Source: Heliocybe sulcata (Eukaryota > Basidiomycota > Agaricomycetes > Gloeophyllales > Gloeophyllaceae). From it: DNA of 64,000 nt. The translations under genes were made by a program, and so were the position numbers. Of the stretch, positions 1-50,309 are shown in pieces. Position 1 is the first letter of the stretch, and each line of letters begins with the position of its first letter. Below the pieces are notes generated by a model. That model saw nothing but the letters and a program-made list of their open reading frames with translations, was not told the origin of the DNA and did no database searches. The stretch is taken from assembly GCA_004369045.1 (NCBI GenBank), contig ML213505.1:1-64000 (forward strand), in the 5' to 3' direction.

Positions 1-682
1 ACATATGGCTCGTACGGGTCCTCGTCCTCCTGCACAGCCGAAGTTTCACCCTCAGTATCAGCAGCATTCCATGGCCCAGGTACATTAAGATCATCCTCAG
101 ACCCAGACTCGCTCGCTTCAGACTCATCATCCTCATCTCCAAATGGGTCGAGGTCATCGTCGACATCAGAAGGGACAATATCTTCATCATCATCAGCCTC
201 AGAGACTGCATCAAGCTCGGGCATTCCATAGAATGGGTCATTGAATGCTGCATTGGTTGCGGCGGGCGAGTCAGGGGTGGCATAGCCAGGAGGTGGGACA
301 GACTCGACATCGGCACGCATAGATCCAGAATGGCCTGGAAGATCGATTGGTGCACTCTTTAGAGGGGAAAGGACATGAATAAATAAAACATAAGGACAGA
401 TAAAAGACTCACCATGGAAGCATCCTCGGGGGCAGCAGCAACAAGTCGCTGTCGCTTGGGAGCAGGCAGGCCCATCTGGCTCGAGGATGCTTGAGAAGGT
501 TCTCCGGCAGCCTCAAGCACAGCCGCTCTGTCGGCTAGGAATTTCTGTGTTGATGGGAGGTAGTTCTGTACGCGGTCCTCTTCACGGTAAGGCTGATGTG
601 CACGGAAGGTGTCATACGCAACCATACGGCCACTGCCACATTTTCTCGAGCAAGTGCAAAACTTCTGTCGTTTCTGAGACAT
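1..682 (-). CDS. Tnp2-type (CACTA/EnSpm) transposase, N-terminal part, runs off window
   Basis: Partial gene on the minus strand. The likely start is the ATG at 682. Exon 1 (682-413) encodes MSQKRQKFCTC followed by a second Cys, Gly-rich turn and His, the short Cys/His head seen at the start of Tnp2-domain proteins of Agaricomycetes. An intron (412-357, GTGAGT...AAAG) leads to exon 2, from 356 to the window edge, which encodes a Pro/Ser then strongly acidic Asp/Glu linker. The catalytic Tnp2 domain would lie to the left of the window. This is a plain cut-and-paste DNA transposon gene. Terminal inverted repeats could not be fixed. The call rests on the N-terminal motif and the acidic linker, so the family is probable, not proven. 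Confidence 0.55.
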
Positions 683-3961: not shown

Positions 3962-5640
3962 CAGAGGGACGAATGCTACAGTAGCAGCAGACAAGCAAGA
4001 GAACATTGACTCGCGATCGTGGGTAGGTCGACGTATCTTATTTGTAGTGACGCGGGTCTCCTCGCCATGGTTCCTACGCGGAGCGTAGCACTCGGTGTCT
4101 TCGGTTTCAGAATCGCCCGCGCTGGGCAGGTCTGTTTTTTCGAGCTGCGCAGAGACCATTGATGCTAACGTCTTCTCAGGAGGATGGAGGTAATGCGCAG
4201 TGAATTGTACACCGTCGAGATTCCTGGCCGACACCCAAGGACTGTCTAATCTGATAAGATTAACCTTGTGGTGCCCTCCCTTTATTGACGAAGCGGCATC
4301 CCGCCATGTCTGCTGAATGGTACGATCCCTGACCTTTGCTAGAATGTCGACGGCCGAACTGCGATAATATTGATGACTTCGCATACCCGGGTGCAAGGTA
4401 TGATATATTGATACTCTGAATGGTGTACCCTAGCAAGACCTTGCGAGCAATGCGAATGCACGTCGACTCCTTCGAGAGCAGAATAGCATAACACATCAGC
4501 TTCCCTACCAGAGCTCCTGCCCGGCAACAATTGTCGGCGTCATTCTCAAAAGTCATTCTCAACAATGCCAGGCTGAGGAATCAAGTAATTAGCCACAACG
4601 GTTGGAAGCGGGAGGACGCTTACCGTAATCCCTTCCTCATCAATCACGACACCGATCTCGGTTGCTGCAGGAACAATGGCACAGACAATGTAGTTGCTAT
4701 CAGCCCGCAGTAAGGATTGTGATTGCGTCTCCTCGCCTCCGCTATCGGGGCTAGAAGATTTTCTGCAAGTCGGCATGTCAGCGAAGCTTTCGTGCGTTCA
4801 GTCACTGTCAGCACTGATCTTTCCCCGGCAGGTTACGTCCAATTGGCGCTTCCAGATAAAGGAGAGCTAATATATTTGGAGCACAAGCCTCACCCTTCGA
4901 AGTAACCGGTTAGGACCTACAAGACGCAGCAGTGTCTAGCACGGCGAGTTATTGTCCAAGCTGGAGATCGTCATTGGCGAATGCAGTAGAGTCTCTCGAG
5001 ACGGATCGAACTAGTTTTGGGCTTTATGTTCATTGACGCAGCAGGAGTAGTTGTCCCCTCGACATGAAGGTGCCTACCGGGGTGCTGTTTACGGGAAACC
5101 ACAACGGTGTGGCGCTTGCTCGACATCGCTCCGGGCGTCTAGCCCTAACGCGCTCGAGTCATCTTTGGGCTTGAGTCATCTGAAGCAACCGATGGCAACG
5201 CGCTGATGGAGAACTTAGTAGAACACGCGATATCGGCTGATTCGTATCCCTCACAAGCGGTGTGGCGTTCCGCTTATATTTTGCCAGGTGCTCCTTGAAC
5301 CCTTCCCGGACCATGGCAACGTGTAGAAGAATGAATAAACAAAGTATGAGATAATAGTACTTGATGTGGAACAACGATAGAGGAAGCCGTGCTGCTTCGT
5401 CTACATGCGACAGCCAATGCAGAAACCGCCGCCGTGGCGTGCGACACAGAACGTGATGCGACTCCACCACGTGACCGTGTTGCGCGCGCCAACGGGCTGC
5501 CTTGCGTTGTTCTCAATGGCTCAATGGGCCTTCTTGATCAGTACTGCATTCTGAATCGGTACTGCATCGATAATCAGTGCCGTGTGTTTAACGGAGCTTC
5601 TGTGACCGAGTCAACTGAACTCGTGTTGTCAAGCAAAGCC
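3962..5640. other. Gene-poor stretch, possible remnant on minus strand
   Basis: No gene could be confirmed. On the minus strand a frame at 4776-4623 (Ser-rich start, then NYIVCAIVPAATEIGVVID) can be joined by a GTAAGC intron to a second frame at about 4554-4433 (NDADNCCRAGALVGKLMCYA). This could be two exons of an unrecognised gene or a decayed fragment. No family was identified and neither end is defined. Confidence 0.3.
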
Positions 5641-5641
5641 C

Positions 5642-5649
5642 TATATAAG
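5642..5649 (+). promoter_or_regulatory. TATA box of FunK1 kinase gene
   Basis: TATATAAG lies 37-44 bp before the ATG at 5686. It favours this start over in-frame upstream codons. Confidence 0.5.
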
Positions 5650-5685
5650 ACGCTCGTAGGCCTTCTTTCCATCCCCATTATCGCC

Positions 5686-8390
5686 ATGTCTAACCCTCGA
5701 GCGCTTTCCCATGATTCCAGGCTTCCCTCAGAGGCACCATCTATCTACCAAGACACCGTCTCTATACCAAGGTCTTCTCCGGAGCCCCTTCTCGACTCGG
5801 AGTCCGCATTCGACGCCTCTGATTCTCCAGAATCTTTCTCGCCTCCTGCAGCTAGAGTCCAAGACAAGGGCAAGGCTCGGGCTGATGAGCGGCGACCTGT
5901 CGACTATCATCCGGACACGGTATTCCCGGAGACGAACCACCTTTTCGACCTGTATCATCACGGTAGTATGTCGATCGGAGAGATCATGCAACGCAGCCCC
6001 GAGCCACCTGGCACGCCCCCGCCGCGACCTATTCCCTCCGACTCGAGCGCCATAAAGGAGACTCCGCATGGCATCAGCTCTGACGCGAACGATCACCTTT
6101 GCGTCGACGACCTGCAAGGAGCTCTTGATATCGAGCTGCATGGCACATGGGTGAATGGAGGGCAGGGCATGGTGGACTCCTTCATCGATAGCGCGAAGGT
6201 CCCGGACATGCCCTCCGACGATAATGTTGACGCGTTTCTTGTGTCCTATGATGGATATGTGGACGGTAGATGGAAGGATGTTCCCAAAGATGCCACAGTC
6301 GAGGACGAAACATTATACGAACCCATTAGGAGGCATATCAATGCAATACTACGGGAGTATGGACGAATCACTCGCAGCGCTGTTGCGACCCATGCCACCA
6401 CAATGGGTCATATGAACAACATGTACGAGACGAAGCTCAAAACGAAGCCGGATATCTCTCTCATGGGGTACGGTTCCTCCGTGTCCGGTGTTGAGGGCAT
6501 CCCGAGTCCTCCAGAGTATACCCACTGTATCGCCCCGATCGAAGTGAAGCGCGAGAAGACCAAGTCCCTGGTGAACGACCGGATCCAGCTGGCTGTTTAC
6601 GCCCGCGAGTGTATCATACAACAACCCAGTCGTAACCTCGTGTACAGCACTGTTCTTACGGAGAAGAACATCCGGCTTCACCAGTACGACCGCTGCGGTG
6701 GCATGTTCTCTTGCGAGACGGACATCCACGCCAACGCGCGGACTTTTGTCAAGATTGTCCTTGCGCTTTCGACAGTCCACGAGAAGCTACTGGGCTTCGA
6801 GACCCGCATCTACTGGGACGGCCCAGTACGATATTTCAAGCCTGACTTGGCCAAACCGGACGCATACGTGATCGACAATCCGGATAAGCCTTTCCGCAGG
6901 CATACGATACGGGGCCGCGGCACAACTTGCTGGATTCTCAACGGCTATGACGGCAACAAATTGTTGTTGAAACTTGCGTGGCGTACTATCGAGCGAGATG
7001 CGGAGTGGACCTTCCTCGACACGATTCTGGGAGAGAATAAGAAACGTGCAGAGCAGGGACGAGCTCCTATCCCGGGCATCGGTTCCATTTTGGAATATGG
7101 CGATCTGGAGAAGCTTTCGGATTTTCGTCATGGCATTCCAATGGTCGTCCCTGACCGTATTTATTATTGGATCTTGCAGCCGTACTATGGACCGGCACTC
7201 GATCAGGCGCCGTCCGTCTTGCAGTCTTTGAACGCCCTTTGTGATATCATCCAAGGTGCTTGCCTTCCACAGCAGACGTTAGAACATTTCTCACCATACT
7301 CTTAGGGCAAGCGGAGCTCCATGAACTTGGTATCGTGCACCGCGATATCAGTGTCCTCAACATGGCGGTCAGTCCTAGTCTCGAGACAGCAGAGGGACAA
7401 CGAGGGCATCTGATCGATTTCGATATGGCCAAAAGAGTAGACAGAGAACAAAGTATGGCAGGTAAAGACCTGCGTACAGTGAGTGGTCAATGATCATATT
7501 GTCTCAGCCTCTGACTATCCACGCAGGGCACTCGGGTATTCCAGTCCATCAAGGTTCTTGAAGGATTGGGCAGTCATGACTACTTAGACGACCTCGAGTC
7601 GACCTTCTGGGCGTATACCTGGATCGCGTGCACTAGCGTGAAACCAGCAGAGCCCATGGACGGAATCCCGACTCAACTGGTCGGCTGGGGTTCGTCAACC
7701 TTAGATCGGGCCATCAAGTCTAAAGAAGACTTCCTCAAGAACAAGAGATGCTATTACTTGGTGTCCCCTGGAATGGGTCCCCATGTCAAGAACCTAATTT
7801 CATATATGGCGCGTTTCTTCCATTCGACAGCTCTACCTAGGCTTGAAAGGCTGAGAGAAGAGAGAGACGACGGTCTAAGCCATGACGACAAGCCATTAGA
7901 CTACGCTACTAGGGCCCTCATAGAACAGGGTCTGATTGACCCTCCGCACAACACCGGCGATTCCAGTAAGTCTTTTGCTTCTTCAACTCGTCATCCTATG
8001 CCTGACTATGACTCAGGGCCCGCTGTGGCCGACGCGAGAAAGCACTTCGGGGGCATACTATGGGCAGTGCGGGATGCGATCAAGAACGAAAAGGTCGACC
8101 TGGAACGCAAGGCAGCAGGCGCCTTTGTTCCCGTCCCGGACAAGGATTACGAGACTCCAGTCCTCGTCACTAAGATCCCTGGGGTCATGAACCAGCAGCA
8201 GCCTGTACGACAAACTAAAGCTAGCCGCATGAAGCCCTCGAGGAAGACCCTGGAGGAAAGGGAGAGAGCACGCCGCGATGAGGAGAACGTTACCTACGAG
8301 CTCGAGATGGGTTCAAGCAGCGGCAGCAACAAACGCGTCCGTCGACAGGTCGGGGAACCTAAACCACAGAAGAAGTCGAAAGGGAAGTGA
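5686..8390 (+). CDS. FunK1 fungal-type protein kinase
   Basis: Four exons (5686-7255, 7306-7478, 7527-7965, 8017-8390) join in phase to 851 residues. The third intron (51 nt) is a multiple of three and has no stop, so it could be retained. The N-terminal third is Pro/Ser-rich. The kinase part shows a glycine-rich GRGTT loop, a candidate beta3 lysine in LLLKLAW, the catalytic loop VHRDISVLN and the metal loop LIDFDMAK (DFD instead of DFG), all typical of the FunK1 family (Pfam PF17667). The C-terminal tail is basic (RKTLEERERARR and a Lys-rich end), suggesting nuclear location. The family is expanded in multicellular basidiomycetes and substrates are unknown. A decayed relative follows directly downstream. 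Confidence 0.88.
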
Positions 8391-42568: not shown

Positions 42569-45391
<2,823 letters not shown>

Positions 45392-45422
45392 GGTGGCGGT
45401 GGGAGAGGTGGTAGAAGGAGAG

Positions 45423-45439
45423 ACGCGTCGTTTACGCGT
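45423..45439. promoter_or_regulatory. Pair of MCB boxes in the MCM7-DNMT divergent promoter
   Basis: ACGCGT at 45423-45428 and 45434-45439, 32-48 bp before the MCM7 ATG and 69-85 bp before the methyltransferase ATG. The whole space between the two start codons is 116 bp, so both genes very probably use these sites. Confidence 0.55.
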
Positions 45440-45507
45440 CTGTCACGGACTGGAGTCACACCAACACTTCCGCGTCTCGCGTTCAGTCCGTCCTCATCGC
45501 CGAACGG

Positions 45508-48500
45508 ATGGCGTCCGACTCGAAGACCCGGAGGAGAAGAACAGAGCCGTCGGACGATGGCTATTCCGAGATCGCTCCCTCAGCCCGCAAAAAGGCGAAA
45601 GGAAGTACCCGAGTCCCTTCAAGTTTAAGAGATACGGCGACTGGCATGGAGCAAGAAGTAAGCTATTGATGGGCTGAAACATTACCACTAAGTTCTAGAC
45701 AATGACAGATGGCTGCAGTACAGCTTGGATGCTCATCAGCATCCCCTGCTGCACGTACGGGCCTTCCCTCGTCTGGACCTTCGAGTTCCGTCCGAAGGCT
45801 CTCTGAGCCTAATCTTTCTGACCCCACAAGTAACCTTTAATCAACATAGTCGTACTGCCCTTGTTTCTCACTCATATTCTGTAGGACAGCCTGCTTATGA
45901 AGTCAGGGAAGATGAGCTGGAGGAAGCCCCTGACCTCCAGCTCATCGGCGAGGTCACTCCTGATTCGCAAGAGGACTTCCCCGACATACCCGTGCGACTT
46001 CTCTCTGAGTTTTGCATCTATGAAGCAGACTCTGGACAGCTGGTTCACATTGAGAGACTATTGCTTCTCAATAAACAGACCTGTTGCACGCGGTATGGTG
46101 CCTCTGGCATTGTCCAGCCATATATCGAGGATGGCTTTGACGATGATGAAGACTCAGCGGAGCTGGAACTCGAAGAGCAGCATCTGAAGCTGTCTGATAT
46201 TATTGATTTCAATGTATATGATGTGAAGCACGGTATTCTGGATGAGTAAGTAATGCCAGTTTATCAGATTTGGTTATCATGGCTGAAGACATTGCATACA
46301 GCAAAGTCTATATCAGGACAGCCTATGCTTGGTATATTCTTGAGATCCCCTCAGACAAGTATAAGGCTTATTACACCGACTTCTATGTGAAGCACCACAT
46401 AGTGTGCTTAGTGGTATCTATAGCCTTGCTTGACCCGGAAACCACTCTCCAAGGGTTCCTTAAAGCACTCCACAGTGGGGATTTTGCAAAGTTTGATCCA
46501 CTCTACCATAGTATAGTTGGGAGACGACTATTATATGAAGACTGGCAGCTTGAAGATAATGTACATTTCCTTGATTCTCCTGTTATTAGTGAACTGACCT
46601 ATTACTATTTTCTTAGAGATCCTATCTCCTGAGCTCTCTCCTGGATCTGAGAGAAGATCATGGTCTCAAAATGAAGTTGTCCACTTCACCATTGTTCAGA
46701 TCTTGTACTGGGACAACTCCAGAGTCCTTGGTGTTGGACCCCTCACCTGCTGCTGGTAGCAAACACAAGCCTCAACTTCATCAGAATGATGAAAGGACTG
46801 TGGTCACTCCTGCTGTGCATCATATTGTCAAAGACCAATTTCTACAACCATTCAAAGTTGTTGGTCATTTCCTTGCACCAGAACCCATGCCACCAATCGA
46901 GCAAGAGCCATCCAAAGAGCATTATGGTAATCCAGAAGTGATTAGCTGGGTTAAGAGTGATTGTCAATCTGTCAGGATGGATGGAGTCACATATTCGGTA
47001 GAGTCCAAATCTGTTGAATTCCATCTGTACTGGGAACTGACATAGACTTAAAGGTGGATGATATTGTGGCTGTGATACCAGGTGGTGATGGTGATTCAGC
47101 TCGTGCCAGCCATGCACAAGCACCTTCTACGCACTCAAAGAATGTTCTGGTGAACGAGTTCTGGTATGTTATTTGTTGGTGCTTCTTATGCAGTGTTTCA
47201 ATATAGTACCACAGGTTTGCCCAGATTGTTTACTTCATTCCAAGCCAGAAACCTGGGCTCTTCCATGCCAGATGGATGGAGCATAGCTCTAAGACTGTGT
47301 TGGAAGAGCTGGAAAACCCAAGCATCCTTTTCTACTCATCATATGAATGCAAGGATCTCAAGCTGTCCTGTATCTATAGCAAAGTGCATGCTCACCACCT
47401 GAGACCAGGCCAAGATGAACCATTTCTTCAAGATAACTCTCAATTTTACTACAGGTAGGTGCCACATGTTTTTCATCTTGCAGTGGATACTGATAAATCT
47501 GGTAGTCATGTCTGGGACAGACACAAATCATCCTTCACATATCTATCACCCTTAAAGGTTGATCCCTCCAGTTGTGCCTCATGTGGAATGGAGTCCTTGA
47601 ACGATCAAGCTCCTGATCACCAGCAATTCCACAAGCAGGACTTTATATACTTGTTCCCAAGCACCACCACAGAAGATTCCGTGGAGCCTTACTTGATTGC
47701 TCAAATTACTGAGCTTAGGCAGTCAAATCTGATAATTCAACCATATAGCCGCTTCAATGATGTGCTTAGCCAGCTCTCCATTCAATCTGCCTTTCCTGAT
47801 GAGGTGAGTGCCTTTCTCTGGTAAGGCATCTTGTAACTAACATAGTGAGTCTACAGAGGCGATTAGTCTTGGCTGGAGAAATCATGCAGATACCCAGGTC
47901 CCAAGTAGCTGGTAGATGCTATGTCATCCATGCCGACCTGCTTGATTCTCAAGCCTTGGAAGAGGGCTGGTTGGCCAAGAATGACCACTTCCTGGTTGCC
48001 CATGCAGTGAAGTCTGGAGCACTGATGGACATACATCCAGATGATTTCCATGTTTGCCCCCAGTGTCATGAGGCTGAGCTTTTAGAAGTCAAGCAGTGCC
48101 AGTCATTGCTGTCAAGGAATCAGCCTCTACAAGCACTGGAACTCTTCAGTGGTAAGATAATGCATTGTTTTAGCACTAAACTGGCTAATCAATACAATGG
48201 CAGGGGCAGGAGGTCTGAGTGTAGGATTGAATTCTACTCCATATATTCAGACCAGATGGGCAGTTGAGCTGTCAGAAACTGCAGCTGCAACCTACCAGTA
48301 AGTCCCAGTAATCTTGTGTGGTGATTGATATTGAATCCAATATGTAGGGAAAATCATCCAGAGACTGCAGTATATTGTACAAGCACCAATCAGTTGCTTG
48401 AAGCTACAATTGTAGCTCATGAAAGGAACAAGGATGCAATTTTTCCTTCTCTCCATGGTGAAGAGAGGATGCCTAGGCCCTCAGAAGTAGACTTTATTTA

Positions 48501-50309
48501 TGGAGGTAGTGCATTGTCTGCTGAGATATGGATATGGTAGGAATTGATTATTCATTTTAGGTCCACCATGCCAGTCTTTCAGTGGGGCTAACTATAACAA
48601 AGTGTGTGTTCTGACTGAATTCCTTATCTATCTCTCTCACACTCTAGCAATCTTTAGAGGCCAAATGATCCCAGGTCTGTCATAGCGCAGTTGTTTTTTG
48701 ATTGTCACTGATACTGACAAGCTTCTTGCAGGTCTGCCTTGATTGCCAACTTCATGGCATGGGTCGACTACTATAAGCCAATGTACTTTCTCATTGAGAA
48801 TGTTGTTGGTATTCTCAGCCATAGGCTCAAGGCCGAGAAGGTCAACAACAGGATCACCGGTGGTATTGAGATGGGTATGGTGAAGTTTATCATGCGAGCT
48901 GCCACAAGCTTAGGGTATGGATTAGTTGGACTTTACTGTCGGCACATTCTAATGATTGTTTAGGTACCAGGTTCACTGCAAGGTTCTGCAAGCAGCACAA
49001 TATGGCTCGCCTCAGGGCCGGGAGAGGGTCATATTCCTGGGGTCCAGAGGGCTGATACCCTTACCAGAGTTTCCTCTTCCAACTCACTGCTTCCCCAAGA
49101 GAGTCATGCAGAGAAAAACTGTGACTGGTAATCCCATAACAGGAGTGGACCGTCATCCAGATCAGCCCAACATCCGATCTGCTCCATTTCCACAGGTGAC
49201 AATCAATGATGCCATTGGTGACCTGGTAAGTAAAATATTCTTACATCCGGGGGACCTTGACACTGATATCACCCTTATCCACTAGCCTTCATTTGACTGG
49301 TATGACGTCCAGAACTCTGCCGAGAAGGTCACTAACCTTCAAGTCCAGGATCAACCCGGCCCAGATACGTAAGCCTGGTCCGGATGAGATGGCTCAGGTA
49401 GAGGCGAGATTTGTGCAAGGTATAGCACAGTGCCTCGCACACGATGCCTCCCATGGAGAGTATTCCGGGTTCCCTAGTGCCGTGCACTATGCCTCAAAAG
49501 CTATGAATGACTATCAGTACTGGATGCGGGGAGCAGGGAAGGCGGAGAAAGTCCAGGGACACTACACCAGGCTTTTTACGCCTGCAGTGGTGGAGAGGTA
49601 TGCAGTGCTCATCTGTCTAGCGGGAGAGAAGTTGAGGATACATCACAGAGTTGTCAATATTCCCTTGCGTGCCGATGCAGACCACGAAGGTACGTAATCC
49701 CAGTCTCCTCATGGGCTAAGAGATCCATAGCCATGCTGCAGATCTTCCCGACTGTCTTAAGGGCACGAAGACAATGCAGTCCGGCGATGCAAAGAAGCTC
49801 AAGGGTAAGTAAATAGGCCTGCACGGTCTGCCAAGCTGCTCGCTGAACCATTCCGTCACCAGGGTTGTACAGCCGGCTGAATGGGAATGGGCATTTCGCT
49901 ACCGCACTGACAACGGTATCACCAACAGCGAAGCCAGGTGGCAAAGTCCTACACCCGTCCGTAAGTTCCAGACATATCAACAGCATAGTCCTCGGACCCG
50001 TACACTAACCGCTCTCGTCATCAGCAAAAGCGTATCCTCACAGTACGAGAATGCGCTCGAGGCCAGGGCTTCCCAGACGACTATGTCTTCAAGACCAATG
50101 GGAAGACCGGAACCGCGAAGGTGGAGGATGTGAGTTGCTCCGTATAATGCAATATCCTGGCCGCTAACCGGGCTTTACGTGTGCAGCAACTTCGACAGAT
50201 CGGCAACGCAGTACCCGTGCCACTGGCGCGGGCTCTTGGGAAGGTGATTGGAAACTCAATGCTACAAGTCTGGGCGGAACACGAGCGGGAAGGCAGTCCA
50301 CAGGTCTGA
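45508..50309 (+). CDS. DNMT1-type DNA (cytosine-5) methyltransferase
   Basis: Twenty-one exons join with consistent phase to 1,230 residues; the smallest are 14 and 17 nt. The start is MASDSKTRRRR, with a basic nuclear signal (SARKKAKGS). Domains: an RFD-type targeting domain (HSYSVGQPAYE...IPVRLLSEF...RYGASG...AYAWYILEIPS, residues about 70-330); two BAH domains (VTYSVDDIVAVIPGG; KQDFIYLFPS...GRCYVIHADLL) at about 435-720; and a full catalytic domain with ELFSGAGGLSVGL (motif I, near 748), IYGGPPCQSFSGANYNK (motif IV, Cys nucleophile), LIENVVG (VI), QGRERV (VIII), and RQIGNAVPVPLA (X). It methylates CpG, probably as a maintenance enzyme at replication forks. Exons 3-14 are strikingly poor in CpG. 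Confidence 0.95.
46381..48660. other. CpG-depleted core of the DNA methyltransferase gene
   Basis: Counting by eye, this 2,280-bp stretch holds about 12 CpG, and three 300-bp blocks (47161-47460, 48061-48360, 48361-48660) hold none. A 300-bp block of neighbouring MCM7 (43801-44100) holds about 28. TG and CA are frequent. Both exons and introns are affected, while the first about 500 bp and the last about 1 kb of the gene look normal. Confidence 0.85.

Follow-up and report, generated by a model that had tools for sequence, protein, structure and literature searches.

How can a gene lose most of its CpG dinucleotides and still look intact, and why should it be the gene of an enzyme that methylates CpG? 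The question is raised by a predicted DNMT1-type DNA methyltransferase gene in the first 64,000 nucleotides of Heliocybe sulcata contig ML213505.1 (assembly GCA_004369045.1), the stretch analysed here and hereafter called the window. The loss is specific to CpG, it is graded in shape, and the gene carrying it is intact. We infer that methylation caused the loss, and give about even chances to the reading in which the gene body was densely CpG-methylated for a long time in the germ line, by a mark that may have been anchored on the gene itself. The features at issue are:

45508..50309, plus strand: DNMT1-type (DNMT1/Masc2-like) DNA methyltransferase gene, predicted model of 22 exons and 1,220 amino acids
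46178..49303, no strand: CpG-depleted tract in its best sharp-edged cut, from segmentation, with 25 CpG among 571 CpG+TpG+CpA sites
46250..48750, no strand: deepest part of the CpG-depleted tract, CpG observed/expected ratio (o/e) 0.12

The o/e of the deepest part compares with 0.99 outside the gene, where 2.5-kb windows range from 0.87 to 1.13 and none falls below 0.87. TpG and CpA are raised there: outside the gene their o/e are 1.04 and 1.06, in the deepest part 1.42 and 1.44. The eight 500-bp bins of 46001-50000 hold 9, 3, 3, 5, 0, 6, 15 and 24 CpG, and the other 120 of the 128 bins of the window 21-52 each. Expressed as o/e, the bins of 46001-49000 read 0.37, 0.13, 0.13, 0.18, 0 and 0.25 in a window otherwise close to 1; the next two bins rise to 0.45 and 0.68, and the one starting at 50001 reaches 0.94. 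CpG makes up a fraction of 0.044 of the CpG+TpG+CpA sites in 46178-49303 and 0.348 outside the gene, and the longest CpG-free run of TpG/CpA sites is 133 in the gene versus 24 outside. Chance as the cause of the tract is ruled out by the contrast in o/e together with the segmentation. An initial annotation of this DNA had described about 12 CpG in approximately 46.4-48.7 kb, 300-bp blocks without any CpG and an abundance of TG/CA. A recount of 46.40-48.68 kb gives 12, six overlapping 300-bp windows (starting at 47201, 47301, 48001, 48101, 48201 and 48301) hold none, and the TpG and CpA ratios above agree with the last point. Its estimate of about 28 CpG per 300 bp for the neighbouring MCM7 gene was too high, the measured density being about 21 (the five 500-bp bins of 43001-45500 hold 30-42 each). 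It had also suggested looking for other intact genes with equal depletion, and there are none in the other 59 kb of the window. Among the matches listed in the open-licence literature, there was no report of a CpG-depleted fungal DNMT gene. Apart from the DNMT1 gene, the lowest ratio is that of bin 1-500 (CpG o/e 0.61, TpG+CpA 1.28), possibly the margin of a further depleted tract that the window truncates.

In order to separate the loss of CpG from a general shift in composition, third codon positions of the core were compared with those of 24 open reading frames (ORFs) elsewhere in the window, an uncurated set of open stretches measured from stop to stop and 200 codons or longer, of which 20 were scanned against Pfam and 10 gave a match, and the remainder of which may include non-coding DNA. 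Before G, C occupies 9/104 of the C/T third positions of the core versus 692/1,279 in the 24 ORFs, while before A, C or T the figures are 154/279 and 1,362/2,377 (p 0.52). The opposite strand gives the same picture: among A/G third positions, G after C is found in 3/64 versus 524/919, and G after other bases in 128/214 versus 1,293/2,049 (p 0.37). The CpG contrasts persist when only the 10 Pfam-supported ORFs serve as background (9/104 vs 350/617 and 3/64 vs 249/430), with a non-CpG control for C of 154/279 vs 676/1,126 (p 0.15). Nearly the whole composition difference of the core is CpG, on both strands. The gene ends are intermediate, C before G being retained in 13/45 positions at the 5' end and 19/48 at the 3' end, and G after C in 13/25 and 13/43, respectively. 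Introns are depleted like exons, as had been noticed at the outset: within 46246-48963, 12 introns hold 2 CpG in 642 bp (o/e 0.09) and 11 exons 17 CpG in 2,076 bp (o/e 0.16). A bias of the decay towards TpCpG was not clearly seen among the 25 residual CpG of 46178-49303, six of which follow T. Eleven of the same 25 follow C, versus 970/4,129 in the background (p 0.03, uncorrected), and CCG could be methylated less or decay less.

The gene model was assembled manually from a translation in three frames, with frame and GT-AG introns checked, and is a prediction from sequence only. Its 21 introns are each GT-AG and 49-64 nt long, and there are no in-frame stops. The intactness claimed by the initial annotation is retained, and its count of 21 exons becomes 22. 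A pseudogene is ruled out, the junction after 46997 being in frame with a 56-nt GT-AG intron that uses the next AG acceptor. Three domains of the protein score above the Pfam cut-off:

residues 126-251: RFD (Pfam DNMT1-RFD, 5.3e-09)
residues 476-552: BAH (Pfam BAH, 1.1e-08), the only BAH domain above cut-off
residues 732-1202: C5-methyltransferase domain (Pfam DNA_methylase, 7.3e-53)

This order of RFD, BAH and catalytic domain is that of DNMT1/Masc2 (DNMT1-RFD) enzymes. The top PDB matches of the protein are DNMT1 structures, among them 5gut (E 6.8e-62), which we take to be mammalian DNMT1. The motifs FSGAGG, PPCQ, ENV, QYG..QGRER and GNAVP match DNMT1 in the PDB alignments, and the catalytic motifs are intact. 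The predicted product is a DNMT1-type enzyme, to all appearance intact. The layout of RFD, BAH and C5-methyltransferase is the one given for basidiomycete DNMT1/Masc2 enzymes (PMC5073141, PMC7862722, PMC13297926). The enzyme thus shares the domain order of its basidiomycete counterparts (PMC5073141, PMC7862722) and is ordinary-looking, whereas the base composition of its gene is not. A fungal orthologue was not found in the contig collections searched with the catalytic half and the RFD-BAH half of the protein. Among viral contigs, two loci match the catalytic half, and the RFD-BAH half has no relatives among 8 matched stretches. In genome contigs, 26 stretches matched and 17 of them were relatives, every one labelled as prokaryotic and left out of the analysis. 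The top-scoring relative of the catalytic half in the genome collection lies on a contig of a Lokiarchaeota metagenome-assembled genome (L003:5001-6056; 28% identity in the best segment, query residues 1-471).

The absence of stops is not what unselected decay would be expected to leave. When 88% of the CpG was allowed to decay in a simple simulation, using coding sequence sampled from the background ORFs, an average of 4.2 stops arose per 692 codons and only 1.9% of 2,000 trials remained free of them. The protein is somewhat worn, with frame, splice sites and catalytic motifs kept. The wear is apparent because arginine is reduced in the core and the arginine that remains is mostly encoded by AGA/AGG. 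Arginine accounts for 4.0% of core codons. The gene ends have 6.6% (p 0.05), the 24 ORFs together 7.3% (p 0.001) and the ten supported by Pfam 6.8% (p 0.006); AGA/AGG make up 82% of the arginine codons in the core, compared with 43% in the ends of the gene and 32% in the 24-ORF background.

The shape of the tract was examined at its two edges. Smooth edges beat sharp ones by 9.8 log units in a test that left out the CpG-dense stretch 45380-45640, and simulations with sharp edges gain at most 3.1 (0/200 reach the observed value). With one edge smoothed and the other kept sharp, the gain is about 4 log units for either. The eight best smooth fits have an edge scale of 200-400 bp and centres at 45.78-45.98 and 49.35-49.48 kb. 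By the Bayesian information criterion (BIC), segmentation into three segments (1332.4) and into five (1331.8, marginally lower) are close, the five-segment cut also setting apart 45471-45638 as CpG-dense and 45642-46171 as intermediate. A stepwise 3' edge was rejected in favour of smooth edges, as the four-segment fit is disfavoured (BIC 1337.8 vs 1332.4 for three). The edges and their surroundings comprise the following features:

45642..46171, no strand: 5' shoulder of intermediate depletion, 19/99 sites CpG
48765..49666, no strand: 3' shoulder of intermediate depletion, 10/98 and then 14/67 sites CpG
45421..45590, no strand: CpG-dense stretch over exon 1 and the gap that separates the DNMT1 start codon from that of MCM7, 24 CpG in 170 bp
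42655..45391, minus strand: MCM7 gene, divergent neighbour, with Pfam MCM P-loop, OB, MCM lid and MCM7 winged helix

The gene ends had been described initially as CpG-normal. This applies to 49668-50309, where 43/135 sites are CpG, and fails for 45642-46171 and for 49306-49666, the latter being the 14/67 part of the 3' shoulder. The stretch 45421-45590 ties with one other place as the CpG-densest of the window. The depletion begins beyond this promoter region, fades ahead of the stop codon and spares the bins of MCM7. MCM7 is read from the minus strand and the DNMT1 gene from the plus strand, with 116 bp between their probable start codons; that of MCM7 is deduced from the ORF, and its first exon lacks a domain match. 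The two genes, one for replication licensing and the other for a maintenance-type methyltransferase, thus probably share one short CpG-dense promoter. Elsewhere in the window, two adjoining ORFs at 5365-8387 hit Pkinase_fungal, the Pfam family of fungal protein kinases.

A course of events that would produce this pattern starts with dense CpG methylation on the body of one DNMT1-type gene, kept in the germ line over long evolutionary time, with the promoter and first exon unmethylated throughout. The C of methylated CpG would have changed to T on both strands, in introns as well as exons, until approximately nine tenths of the CpG had been lost in the deepest part, and selection would meanwhile have preserved reading frame, splice sites and catalytic motifs. 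The mark would have tracked the gene, starting beyond the CpG-dense promoter and ending ahead of the stop codon without reaching MCM7. More speculatively, a DNMT1-type maintenance enzyme, either the product of the gene or a paralogue, may have maintained the mark as a feedback on the gene. The gene-centred shape speaks for a mark that follows the gene, and the initial proposal that the gene body lost its CpG by decay while the protein was kept is supported, given the CpG-specific loss on both strands, the intact frame, splice sites and motifs, and the rarity of stop-free trials. In the human genome, where 70-80% of CpG are methylated, CpG is depleted about five-fold (PMC13297926). The core is depleted about eight-fold, which implies either long and dense germ-line methylation or a faster CpG-specific mutation process. 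That the enzyme placed its mark on its own gene body, promoter excepted, as a long-lived brake on expression that left the CpG desert as its fossil trace, is a tentative suggestion that we consider rather doubtful. Depletion alone cannot tell which enzyme wrote the mark, or why.

Several observations weigh against a long-standing mark on this gene. Gene-body methylation is described as largely lost in fungi (PMC13297926), and in a CpG o/e survey the gene bodies of fungi fall into the ultra-low to weakly methylated classes (PMC6336885). In Pleurotus it is labile, two species sharing one methylated ortholog pair, and it goes with low expression, highly expressed genes being less methylated (PMC6627472); a negative correlation between methylation and expression is also given in PMC5974365. 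Against this background, long persistence of the mark on a working gene is surprising. The data themselves contain further difficulties. A direct test of whether the lost third-position bases turned into their transition partners leans towards such a change but is borderline (p 0.05 and 0.13), and 64 CpG were lost versus 45 TpG+CpA gained per kb, leaving about 30% of the lost CpG unmatched. Third-position G outside CpG is slightly low compared to the 10 Pfam-supported ORFs (128/214 vs 656/973, p 0.04), and the gene-specificity of the depletion is judged on 64 kb of genome only. CpG gene-body methylation is, however, present in a rust fungus, on lower-expressed alleles (PMC12129025).

The main rival holds that a second, similar copy of part of the gene, past or present, triggered the marking of both copies by a process like methylation induced premeiotically (MIP) or a CpG-type repeat-induced point mutation (RIP), in which case the tract would record an old duplication instead of a property of the gene. 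We regard this as doubtful. In its favour, the tract spans part of the gene, as a partial copy would; most Agaricomycetes genomes have two to three DNMT1-RFD genes (PMC13297926); in basidiomycete transposons, CpG-to-TpG decay has been linked to a Masc2-like enzyme and to a process resembling MIP (PMC4352252); the methylated genes of Ganoderma sinense include three neighbouring CYP5150 genes, more than 90% similar and situated in transposon-rich regions (PMC4457147); and dim2, a DNA methyltransferase gene of Zymoseptoria tritici, exists in many RIP-mutated copies (PMC8016269). However, no second copy was found within the 64-kb window, the present gene is intact while the dim2 copies are not, and RID and Masc1 are reported absent in basidiomycetes (PMC5073141). 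The edges are also graded, although leakage past repeats has been described for RIP (PMC4014442). RIP of the ascomycete type is ruled out, as CpA o/e is 1.44 versus 1.06 outside and TpA 0.71 versus 0.77 outside. The target has not been inactivated either: it has no in-frame stop and all its splice sites are GT-AG.

Replacement of the core by a CpG-poor copy, through conversion from a paralogue in the same genome or transfer from another, had been offered initially as the alternative and has in its favour the strong difference in CpG content between core and ends of one gene. We consider it improbable. It is weakened by the graded edges and by near-background codon use off CpG, the non-CpG third positions matching the 24 ORFs or differing slightly from the 10 Pfam-supported ones, so that a donor from outside would have to share this codon use; a paralogue of the same genome may still have been the donor. 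The donor itself must also first have lost its CpG. A foreign block was not the first choice on the same two grounds, and decay in place under selection fits better than a foreign or inserted block. The last explanation, to which we give the least credence, is selection against CpG, by which the loss was favoured as it let the gene escape methylation by its own product. That product does act on CpG, and lost third-position G is partly matched by more C, besides A. Against this, introns are depleted as much as exons, TpG and CpA rose together, and CpG at codon positions 1-2, where its loss mostly changes the protein, fell equally (7.2 vs 49.8 per 1,000 codons), with arginine reduced. The probability left over by the gene-anchored mark, the homology-triggered one, conversion or transfer, and selection belongs to causes not thought of here.

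Decay in place of a gene-anchored mark finds its closest likeness in the gene-body methylation of animals and plants, whose signature of a depleted body, gained TpG/CpA and a spared promoter the DNMT1 gene carries. Common to both are a CpG-poor body with graded ends, a CpG-dense promoter region and a gain of TpG/CpA on two strands, but here a single gene amid 64 kb of normal genes is affected, in a fungus, a group described as having largely lost this kind of mark (PMC13297926), and the methylation is presumed. RIP of Neurospora and other ascomycetes is similar in its C-to-T changes on both strands over a bounded stretch, and differs in that the DNMT1 gene is free of stops and intact and CpA has not been consumed. 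The CpG decay of the basidiomycetes Microbotryum, Ganoderma and Rhizoctonia (PMC4352252, PMC4457147, PMC4014442) shares the CpG target and the change to TpG. Those cases concern transposons, or genes throughout the genome as in Rhizoctonia solani, where the CpG-to-TpG change appears as single-nucleotide polymorphisms between nuclei (PMC4014442), while here a fixed loss is seen in one intact gene of the 64 kb. Zymoseptoria tritici dim2 is likewise a fungal DNA methyltransferase gene with C-to-T scars (PMC8016269); there, many copies, RIP and a lost function are involved, here CpG only, an intact gene and no second copy in the window.

Fungi have largely abandoned gene-body methylation, possibly since it causes coding sequence to mutate, according to a recent review (PMC13297926). 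The gene for the methylating enzyme itself seems to bear this mutational cost almost fully and yet stays intact. It becomes testable how fungi without a DNMT3-type enzyme aim methylation at single genes, and whether a mark on its own gene sets the dose of DNMT1. If the reading is true, a self-methylation feedback would have lasted in a lineage that has otherwise largely dropped gene-body methylation.

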